42,828 nucleotides of DNA, from positions 1-42,828 of the forward strand of contig CANQLJ010000013.1 of assembly GCA_947624685.1 (NCBI GenBank). The letters run 5' to 3'. Origin of the DNA: Candidatus Gastranaerophilales bacterium (GTDB lineage Bacteria > Cyanobacteriota > Vampirovibrionia > Gastranaerophilales > Gastranaerophilaceae). A model generated the notes under the pieces. The model had not been told where the DNA came from, made no database searches, and saw nothing but the letters and a program-made list of their open reading frames with translations. The position numbers were made by a program, and so were the translations under genes. Shown here piece by piece: positions 22,921 through 35,937 of the stretch. Positions within the stretch are counted from its first letter, which is position 1. Each line of letters opens with the position of its first letter.

Positions 22921-23415
22921 CTAGTGTTTACAATATAAAACGATCTTGTTTTCCTTAAGAGACTTTTGAACGTCGATTATTCTTTGGTTATAGCTTCCGA
23001 CCCATTCGATGTTGTTGTCGTTGAGTTCTTTTTTAAATTCGCCGTCTAATAATACGTCGATGTTTGATAAATCAAGCGCGTCTTTAATTTCTTCCCACAA
23101 AAACCCCGTATAGAGCCAAACGGTCTTGTTTTTAAATTTTTCTTTAATCTCTTTTGCAAGCCCCAAAACCGTCTCGCGATTAAAAGGATGCAAAGGATCG
23201 CCGCCCGAGAAAGTAATTCCCGAAATATAATCGGGCGCTAAATCATCAAAGAGCTCTTTTTTTGCCTTATCATCAAATTCGATACCGCCTGCAACATCCC
23301 AAGTCTGCGGATTTTGGCAGCCTTCGCAGCAGTGAGTACATCCTGATGTCCAAAGGACAACCCTTAAACCTTCGCCATTTAGCATATCGTCTTTGGTGAT
23401 GTTGTGATAATTCAT
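22921..23415 (-). CDS. nrdG: Anaerobic ribonucleoside-triphosphate reductase activating protein NrdG
   Basis: Radical-SAM enzyme that installs the glycyl radical in NrdD for oxygen-free deoxynucleotide synthesis. The 164 residues are typical. The 4Fe-4S cysteines follow the CX3CX2C spacing of the NrdG family (Cys26, Cys30, Cys33 in SGCTHCCEGCQNPQTWD), and the SAM-binding ITFSGGDPLHP is intact. NrdD is not in the window, so the gene is separated from its partner. A well-spaced promoter (TTGCCT-17-TATAAT) lies upstream. The TAG stop is 60 nt from the convergent coiled-coil gene. Confidence 0.95.
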   Translation of the reverse strand: MNYHNITKDDMLNGEGLRVVLWTSGCTHCCEGCQNPQTWDVAGGIEFDDKAKKELFDDLAPDYISGITFSGGDPLHPFNRETVLGLAKEIKEKFKNKTVWLYTGFLWEEIKDALDLSNIDVLLDGEFKKELNDNNIEWVGSYNQRIIDVQKSLKENKIVLYCKH

Positions 23416-23531: not shown

Positions 23532-23549
23532 TTTTTTTTTGGGGGGGGG
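23532..23549. repeat. T9G9 homopolymer pair between two minus-strand genes
   Basis: Nine T followed by nine G, next to short TTTTTGC repeats (about 23507-23526), in the 207-bp gap between the gene ending at 23623 and nrdG (start 23415). It lies about 50 bp upstream of the nrdG -35 box. The rest of the gap holds only the nrdG promoter and AT-rich sequence. On the transcribed strand the tract is C9. Confidence 0.8.
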
Positions 23550-23622: not shown

Positions 23623-24462
23623 CTAGATTTCTTTTGCTTCAATTGAATTAAAATGCTCGCGAGCAAGGAATTGGATGTTTTTTGCTTTTTCAAAATTTTC
23701 TTTTGTTTTTGTTTTAATGTCTTTTGATAAGCTATCAGCGAGCTTCAATTCGCCATATGAACCCAAGCCCATAACCATAAGAGGCGAAAGAGCGCATAAG
23801 GTTTTTAATTTTGCACTATTTTTGCTTTCAATTTTTGAAATAAAAGCGTTGATTTTTTTTGAAGCTTTAAAAGAATTGATTTCTTTTGATAATTGGGCAA
23901 TTTCTTTTTGAGCAAAATCATAGATATTATCTATAACTTTTGTTTTTCCGGCTATTAATGCCGCAGCGCCAAGAGCCAAAGCGGCGCTTGCGCCTTTTAG
24001 GACATTATTTATTTTGGTTTTTTTATCGTTTTTATCGGTTTTATTTTCTTGAATCAAGTTTAGGGAATCTTGCTTTAGAGATTTTTCTTTTGATTTTTGA
24101 ACTTGTTTTGAAATGAATTTTTCGCCTTCAAAAATCATGCTCATTAGCGTTAAAAAACCCAACCCTGCACCGGCTTTCGCCGTAATTTTCCCGGGTTGGG
24201 CAATTGCTATTGTACTTCCTAATAATGCTGTTGTGATTTGGGGCATCGCCTTGAATAATCGCATTTTACCGCTATTTTGCACCTGCTTATACGCTTTATT
24301 CAAGCTCATTACACCTAAAGTGTCGTCGTTCATCTGCTCATAATGCTTGTATCTAATCTTCGTGCCGTCATTTCGGCTGCGCTTTTGATTAATTTGGTCG
24401 TCTCCCAAAAAGTTTAATCTGCGCTTAGGCTTGTTGCAATCAATTATATTCTTAATCTGCAT
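23623..24462 (-). CDS. Hypothetical membrane-associated protein, 279 residues
   Basis: No family recognised. The N-terminus is hydrophilic and basic (KPKRRLNFLGDDQINQKRSR). Hydrophobic segments follow at about 75-110 (MPQITTALLGSTIAIAQPGK, GAGLGFLTLMSMIF), 155-172 (GASAALALGAAALIAG) and 222-240 (LCALSPLMVMGLGSYG), separated by Lys-rich helices. The style resembles the two unknown membrane proteins at 29920-31313 (Ala/Gly-rich hydrophobic blocks, Lys-rich helices), suggesting a lineage-specific class. The ATG has a strong GAGGAAG ribosome-binding site. No intrinsic terminator follows; the downstream transcript passes into the C9 tract. Confidence 0.7.
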   Translation of the reverse strand: MQIKNIIDCNKPKRRLNFLGDDQINQKRSRNDGTKIRYKHYEQMNDDTLGVMSLNKAYKQVQNSGKMRLFKAMPQITTALLGSTIAIAQPGKITAKAGAGLGFLTLMSMIFEGEKFISKQVQKSKEKSLKQDSLNLIQENKTDKNDKKTKINNVLKGASAALALGAAALIAGKTKVIDNIYDFAQKEIAQLSKEINSFKASKKINAFISKIESKNSAKLKTLCALSPLMVMGLGSYGELKLADSLSKDIKTKTKENFEKAKNIQFLAREHFNSIEAKEI

Positions 24463-34711: not shown

Positions 34712-34743
34712 TAATTTTGTGATGAATATAGAAAGGATGAAAT

Positions 34744-35937
34744 ATGATTTTTTGTGAAGATAAAACCAAAATGTTGAGGGGGGGGGGGCTAGAAGAAACT
34801 TCAACTTCGGCTAAATTACAAGAAAAAAACACAAACGAGAATAATACTCAAAAAACGGCGCCAAAATTTTTTGACAATATTTTTTCAATAAAAAACCTTG
34901 AACGATACAGCGCATACACGGATTTAATTTATAAACACAAACAAATCACCCTTTTGGGATTGAAATTTAAAATAAAAAAAGGAACAACAAAACCGCAAAA
35001 ACCCGATTTAACCTCGCTATACATCGATTATTCCGATTTACTTTATTTATCTTTGTATAACGATTTAAAAAATTATAAAAATTTGAAAGAAGATTATCTG
35101 AATTTAATTAAGGGCCTGGACGAAAAGTCAATAGAATTGGTGGACAGATCGCTCAATGCTTTGCAAAACAGCAATGGCGTTGATAAATTTAAGGTTGAAT
35201 ATTTTGATTATGAACTCGACTTAGTCAAAAAGGCCGATATGCTTCATAATTCAATTGTGAAATTGGACGAAAATCTTTGGGCATATAAAAACTATCTGCT
35301 TTCTTACAATCTTTTTCCTTATGAAGTTTTTATAAGCAATTTCGCAAAAGAAGAATTCACTAACTTAAATCCCGAAAAATCAATCATTGACGCCGGCGCT
35401 TTCATTGGCGACAGCGCGATTGTTTTATCCGATTTAACAAACAAAAATGTCTATGCTTTTGAGCCTATCTTACCCGTATTTGAAAAGCTCAAACGGACAA
35501 TCGAGCTGAATCACTTGCAAAATAAGATTATTCCCGTTAATAAATGTTTTTCAAATGAAAATAAAACAATCGAATTGCACTATGATTCGCAAGGTTTTAA
35601 CGGGTGTTCGTCTCTTGATAACATTAGGCAATTCGGCGAAATTCAAGAAGCGCAAGCAATCACTTTGGATGATTTTGTAAATTCAAATAATATTGAAGTC
35701 GGTTTGATTAAAGCGGATATTGAAGGTGCGGAACAATTGCTTTTGAAAGGTGCGATAAATACCATAAAAACGCAAAGGCCGCATATGATTATCTCGATTT
35801 ATCATAATATTTCGGATTATTTTAAAATTAAGCCGATGATTGAAAATTTAAACCTTAACTATAAATTTAAAATCAGAAAAGGAAATCCAAAAACCGCAAT
35901 CGGCGAAACAGTCTTGATTTGCGAACCGCAAAAATAG
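34744..35937 (+). CDS. FkbM-family methyltransferase, predicted phase-variable
   Basis: SAM-dependent O-methyltransferase of the FkbM family, typically acting on surface glycans. In the 397 residues, the segment ~43-80 (FSIKNLERYS ... ITLLGLKFKIKKG) resembles a linker that accompanies capsule or LPS enzymes in gut and mucosal bacteria. Residues ~213-228 hold the SAM-binding motif SIIDAGAFIGDSAIVL, then NVYAFEPILPVFEKLKRTI, QAITLDDF, LIKADIEGAEQLLLKGA and the FkbM-like end PHMIISIYHN. Eleven consecutive G at codons 12-15 (34778-34788) keep the frame open. Ten G create a TAG immediately after the tract; twelve G reach TAA eight codons later. No other ATG exists until residue 166, so slippage would switch the protein on and off. 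The composition matches its neighbours. Confidence 0.88.
   Translation: MIFCEDKTKMLRGGGLEETSTSAKLQEKNTNENNTQKTAPKFFDNIFSIKNLERYSAYTDLIYKHKQITLLGLKFKIKKGTTKPQKPDLTSLYIDYSDLLYLSLYNDLKNYKNLKEDYLNLIKGLDEKSIELVDRSLNALQNSNGVDKFKVEYFDYELDLVKKADMLHNSIVKLDENLWAYKNYLLSYNLFPYEVFISNFAKEEFTNLNPEKSIIDAGAFIGDSAIVLSDLTNKNVYAFEPILPVFEKLKRTIELNHLQNKIIPVNKCFSNENKTIELHYDSQGFNGCSSLDNIRQFGEIQEAQAITLDDFVNSNNIEVGLIKADIEGAEQLLLKGAINTIKTQRPHMIISIYHNISDYFKIKPMIENLNLNYKFKIRKGNPKTAIGETVLICEPQK
34778..34788 (+). repeat. G11 homopolymer contingency tract
   Basis: Eleven consecutive G in an otherwise AT-rich gene, 34 bases after the ATG of the FkbM methyltransferase. Its length is in the range known to slip during replication in Campylobacter contingency genes. 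The current length is the in-frame (ON) state. Confidence 0.9.

Follow-up and report, generated by a model that had tools for sequence, protein, structure and literature searches.

A run of eleven G lies just inside the 5' end of an FkbM-family methyltransferase gene from a Candidatus Gastranaerophilales bacterium and raises the question of whether slippage in the run switches the gene on and off, as an earlier note on this DNA had proposed. The gene is carried by contig C13 of a 2.02-Mb MAG of 92 contigs; the window, the whole stretch of DNA that was analysed, is 42,828 nucleotides long. We analysed the reading frame across the tract, the set of similar tracts in this genome and its relatives, and the placement of stop codons behind them. 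With a probability of roughly 0.85, we read the G11 tract as a translational contingency switch driven by slippage.

Reading frame across the G11 tract

The features of the locus are collected in Table 1 together with the tract genes of the genome. The arithmetic of the earlier note proved exact: the ORF is uninterrupted at the present length, a tract of 10 G leads to a TAG straight after the tract, and a tract of 12 G leads to a TAA eight codons on. The computed products are 396 residues at G8, 22 at G9, 15 at G10, 397 at G11, 23 at G12 and 16 at G13. A single-base length change in the tract, which lies at codon 12 in the 5' coding region, is thus computed to leave a truncated product of 15–23 residues. 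The next ATG after the tract is codon 166, again as claimed, and TTG or GTG codons stand ahead of it at codons 71, 73, 104, 114, 132, 133 and 140. The locus is represented by one copy and one allele in the assembly. A scan for promoters and terminators around the gene returned nothing exceeding shuffles.

Table 1. Features of the FkbM locus (window coordinates) and tract-bearing genes of the genome.
Feature	Position	Strand	Detail	Basis
Shine-Dalgarno-like AAAGGA	34732..34737	+	6 bases ahead of start codon	sequence
FkbM-family methyltransferase ORF	34744..35937	+	397 aa, in frame (ON) at G11	
N-terminal extension	34744..34866	+	41 codons including tract, upstream of similarity to G027 homologue	alignment
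G11 homopolymer, proposed slippage switch	34778..34788	+	first G 34 nt from A of ATG 34744	
TAG stop	34790..34792	+	reached at G10 or G13	in silico tract lengths
TAA stop	34812..34814	+	reached at G9 or G12	in silico tract lengths
Internal ATG, codon 166	35239..35241	+	possible short-isoform start when OFF; SD-like AAAAAGG at 35227–35233, 5 bases upstream	
FkbM methyltransferase domain	35383..35799	+	residues 214–352	TIGR01444, 95.9 bits (cut-off 37.7)
FkbM enzymes (2)			window gene ON; C16/C58 gene OFF	Pfam/NCBIfam
Glycosyltransferases			WbsX, group-1; with tract	Pfam/NCBIfam
RgpF			with tract	Pfam/NCBIfam
Cytidylyltransferase/PEP mutase (2)			one ON, one OFF	Pfam/NCBIfam
Class-V aminotransferase			with tract	Pfam/NCBIfam
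Radical SAM enzymes			with tract	Pfam/NCBIfam
Aldo-keto reductase/radical SAM fusions (2)			ON with C9; OFF with G9; tracts at different codons	
HAD enzymes			with tract	Pfam/NCBIfam
Phosphoribulokinase/uridine-kinase-like protein			with tract	Pfam/NCBIfam
N6/N4 DNA methylases (2)			with tract	Pfam/NCBIfam
Phage tail fibre			with tract	Pfam/NCBIfam

The FkbM protein and its leader

The assignment of the gene to the FkbM methyltransferases is borne out by two models, TIGR01444 (Table 1) and PF05050 (52.6 bits, cut-off 22.7, E 7.9e-14), both of which score above their curated cut-offs. The best relative is a 347-residue homologue in genome G027 with 43% identity, whose residue 4 pairs with residue 42 of the window protein. 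Since the similarity begins there, the window protein has an N-terminal extension in which its tract is encoded, and homology across a tract within an unconserved leader cannot alone prove the ATG. The G027 homologue has an in-frame G10 of its own, placed differently (approximately 45 residues in), and such relatives with tracts at different positions point to repeated independent gain of the tract. Among viral contigs, no relatives of the FkbM protein or of the tail fibre were found.

The neighbouring metG is 81–84% identical to its counterparts in Candidatus Gastranaerophilales MAGs of animal-gut origin, which places the organism among the gut Melainabacteria. At 80 named Gastranaerophilales metG loci searched for metG-FkbM-ssb synteny, none had the other query genes near metG, so there is no orthologous locus at which tract length can be compared.

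A genome-wide set of tract genes

The window contains two G9+ runs and six G8 words, against a mean of 0.11 in dinucleotide shuffles (0/100 shuffles reach six). Genome-wide, 28 matches to G/C runs of at least 9 resolve to 26 distinct loci (two loci lie on two contigs each), where Markov models trained on window sequence predict about 1–5 (genome GC 34–36%). By the shuffles and the Markov models alike, the FkbM G11 tract exceeds chance.

Tracts at 21 of the 26 loci lie within genes. Reading the frame across the tract gave 13 genes ON, 4 OFF and 1 in both states; the remaining 3 are near a gene or contig end and were left unscored. Pfam and NCBIfam assign most of the genes to surface chemistry (glycans or phosphonates), to the radical SAM enzymes, to the DNA methylases or to a phage tail fibre. 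This profile of surface chemistry, DNA modification and phage genes is that of a phasome.

Stop codons in the off frames lie close behind the tracts. In 30 tract genes drawn from this genome and from two congeners, the first off-frame stop comes at a median of 0.5 codons past the tract, compared with 3 in a null of random codons from the same ORFs; in the other off frame a stop follows at 5.5 codons, compared with 13. None of 5,000 resamples had stops as close as observed; choosing the longest downstream frame may slightly inflate this signal, and the null used the same frames. The unusually close off-frame stops are signs of selection.

Certain nucleotides recur 5' of the tracts on the G strand (TTCCGA, TAAGA and TTAGA, in this genome, G027 and G011), preceding tracts in unrelated genes and in different reading frames. 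We considered that the motif surrounding the tracts (TTCCGA-Gn-CTAG, TAAGA-Gn-TAGGAA) might reveal a dedicated mechanism and set it aside, the close off-frame stops accounting for its downstream half; they do not account for its upstream half.

The second tract of the window, a G9 right after a T run (23532–23549), lies between a 4Fe-4S/radical SAM gene (22921–23415, minus strand) and an ORF at 23623–24462 (minus strand). Composites of an A/T run and G8–G9 are also intergenic elsewhere in this genome; variation of promoter spacing is a possible role for them.

Changes of tract length

Tract-length change with unchanged flanks is seen in the lineage at two sister loci, both near contig ends. 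Contigs C67 and C23 of this genome overlap by approximately 116 bases and are identical there except that a tract in a radical SAM gene is G9 in C67 (OFF) and G10, the in-frame length, in C23 (ON); C67 ends 67 bases past the tract and C23 starts 40 bases ahead of it. Two IMG/VR phage contigs from different metagenomes, L210 (3300029705_003524) and L211 (3300029305_012113), match at every position over 3,498 bases apart from the length of one tract in a DNA methylase gene, G8 in the former and G9 in the latter; L210 ends 8 bases past the tract. Given the proximity of both differences to contig ends, either could still stem from assembly or PCR error, and poly-G length in a MAG is generally open to miscalling by PCR or assembly. 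The methylase region of this genome shares 78% identity with L211, and its homologous site is G10 (ON); in L209 the site is G11 (OFF). Phage genes for DNA methylases that are related to this region (L209–L212, L062) contain one to three G8–G11 tracts each.

Distribution of tracts and competing explanations

Of the 28 genomes of the genus, 18 are free of such tracts, 6 contain one or two and 4 contain 15–27 each. Across the family, tracts occur in 99 of 117 genomes; several of these exceed 80 tracts, and the highest number is 128. No genome of the genus has a MutL above the cut-off (0/28, versus 26 of 30 other genomes), and the MutS of the genus is divergent, shorter and scores under the MutS1 cut-off. 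Such a state of the repair genes is seen in some other hypervariable bacteria. We rejected loss of mismatch repair as a sufficient or necessary cause of the tracts, which do not track MutL: the genomes with most tracts are MutL-bearing relatives in the family, and repair loss therefore does not explain the tracts.

The repair genes bear on the idea that the FkbM tract is fixed or neutral, either a mutational relic without adaptive switching or part of a pseudogenising gene that is in frame by accident. With MutL missing and MutS divergent, homopolymers could drift, and the single allele in the assembly offers no direct sign of variation at the FkbM locus. Drift sits poorly, however, with the concentration of tracts in surface-type genes, with their absence from 18 congeners that likewise lack MutL, with the higher rather than lower tract numbers of family members that have it, and with the nearness of off-frame stops; we consider it quite improbable. 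An assembly or sequencing artefact in the tract length, with the true gene constitutively in or out of frame, is scarcely credible: the MAG was built from short reads and some of its contigs end at tracts, but the same architecture recurs across many independent assemblies, the present length keeps the ORF open, and an error of this kind could not produce the tracts themselves. Gene classes, stop placement and breadth thus make neutral drift and artefact unlikely.

An alternative of a different kind retains switching and changes what is switched. In the OFF state, translation might start at codon 166, whose ATG follows an SD-like element and stands ahead of the FkbM domain (Table 1), to give a 232-residue product containing the entire methyltransferase domain; the tract would then toggle the N-terminal region, with a role in targeting or partner binding, and not activity. 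Most sister genes, however, carry the tract inside or just ahead of the catalytic domain, where only ON/OFF fits, and residues 42–165 are conserved in the G027 homologue and therefore matter. We regard an isoform switch as unlikely.

Proposed switch

The earlier interpretation of the tract as a contingency switch is supported by the geometry of the locus, by the set of about 21 genes with mixed states, mostly in surface-glycan chemistry, and by the length change at two sister loci. In such an ON/OFF switch, replication slippage would alter the number of G in the FkbM tract; lengths of G8, G11 or G14 would yield the full-length methyltransferase (ON), and at all other lengths translation would stop within 23 codons (OFF). 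Within one population, a surface glycan would thus carry an O-methyl-type modification on some cells and not on others. In the genome of this gut Melainabacterium, about 20 poly-G/C genes, the FkbM gene among them, would switch independently and together generate a combinatorial mixture of surface chemistries among cells, with selection on the mixture probably exerted by phage or host. We infer slippage at this tract, loss of function in the OFF state, the glycan substrate and the selective agent; the suggestion of SAM-dependent O-methylation of a surface glycan comes from the remaining tract genes in this genome and not from the neighbours metG and ssb.

Prepilin-like genes in other genera

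In other genera, many tracts lie inside type IV prepilin-like genes (G033, L187–L205; G071, L239–L257), and such genes also occur at the named MAG loci L135, L139, L144 and L165. Their layout comprises an SD-ATG, approximately 9 codons, a G9–12 or C9–11 tract, a leader and the type IV prepilin motif FTLAEVLITLGIIGVVAA, with the leader open into the pilin at one length class only. Most copies read OFF (16 of 20 in G071, 15 of 19 in G033), and, judged by its sequences, the family is reminiscent of a pilin repertoire in which each member is switched on its own. The motif FTLAEVLITLGIIGVVAA was not found in the window or in the stretches around the tracts of this genome.

We think it probable that the phasome of the Gastranaerophilales family ranks among the largest known in bacteria (up to ~128 tracts of at least 9 per ~2-Mb genome). 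This phasome would include a lineage-wide repertoire of dozens of prepilin-like genes, each with a G9–12/C9–11 switch approximately 9 codons past the start and most of them OFF, so that few pilin variants would be shown per cell; the genus of the window would use the switch for glycan chemistry instead, and prophages of the lineage would carry tracts too.

Comparison with known phase-variable systems

SSR phase variation has been described mainly in pathogens (Campylobacter, Helicobacter, Neisseria and Haemophilus), and in Neisseria Opa forms a multigene family in which each member is switched independently. Campylobacter jejuni genomes have 18–39 poly-G/C loci, with a median of 20 (PMC6321876, PMC4965091), and NCTC11168 has 28–29 (PMC4965091). 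The set described here is like the Campylobacter phasome (PMC6321876) in its intragenic G8–G11 tracts, its surface-glycan and methyltransferase genes, its ON/OFF states predicted from the reading frame and its approximately 20 loci per genome. It differs in belonging to an unrelated phylum, in uncultured gut Melainabacteria, in including PEP mutases, radical SAM enzymes and AKR-radical SAM fusions, and in that some Gastranaerophilales relatives reach 128 tracts.

In Helicobacter canadensis, tracts likewise occur both at the starts of genes and close to their ends, with translational and C-terminal switching and length variation measured in reads (PMC2823697), whereas here there are two contig-level cases of length change and several tracts are mid-domain. 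The pili switch of Bifidobacterium breve (PMC9187656) is also a slippage-based ON/OFF control of a surface structure in a gut commensal, but involves few loci and sortase-dependent pili, whereas the set here spans the genome and relatives have a repertoire of type IV prepilin-like genes. Neisseria PilC and Opa (Neisseria phasome, PMC5953494) share with the prepilin-like genes a repeat tract in the 5' coding or signal region of pilus or adhesin genes; here, unlike in Neisseria, a poly-G or poly-C tract stands in the leader of the prepilin-like subunits themselves, ahead of the prepilin motif, with dozens of copies per genome.

Full-text literature on Gastranaerophilales and Melainabacteria, subscription papers being outside the search, contained no account of SSR phase variation; the sole joint match with phase-variation terms deals with flagellins. 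The earlier statement that no such description was known for this lineage therefore holds for the searchable full text. The mechanism is classical; the lineage and the scale appear to be undescribed in searchable papers.

Finding a dense poly-G phasome in uncultured commensals of the gut that are related to cyanobacteria suggests that commensals, too, use slippage to diversify their surfaces. Tract lengths at approximately 20 named loci per genome, taken from existing PCR-free or long-read data, would make the ON/OFF states of a hard-to-culture gut group readable from metagenomes. Standard annotation will split tract genes or label them pseudogenes, and because contigs often end at or near tracts, phase-variable genes are expected to be systematically broken in MAGs. 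In this genome, contig ends at or near tracts occur at C16/C58, at C23/C67 and at the start of C30.

Two further arrangements were observed in relatives. On contigs C11 of G033 and C1 and C2 of G071, tract orientation is constant over long stretches and flips once (G033 C11, at ~0.79 Mb), suggesting that tract genes may be co-oriented with replication. At L172 (G027 C5:78851 and 82625), two identical G11 tracts lie 1 base ahead of an ATG, and the genes behind them encode large secreted-looking proteins of 1142 and at least 521 codons; these tracts could act through an upstream ORF or through ribosome-site spacing.
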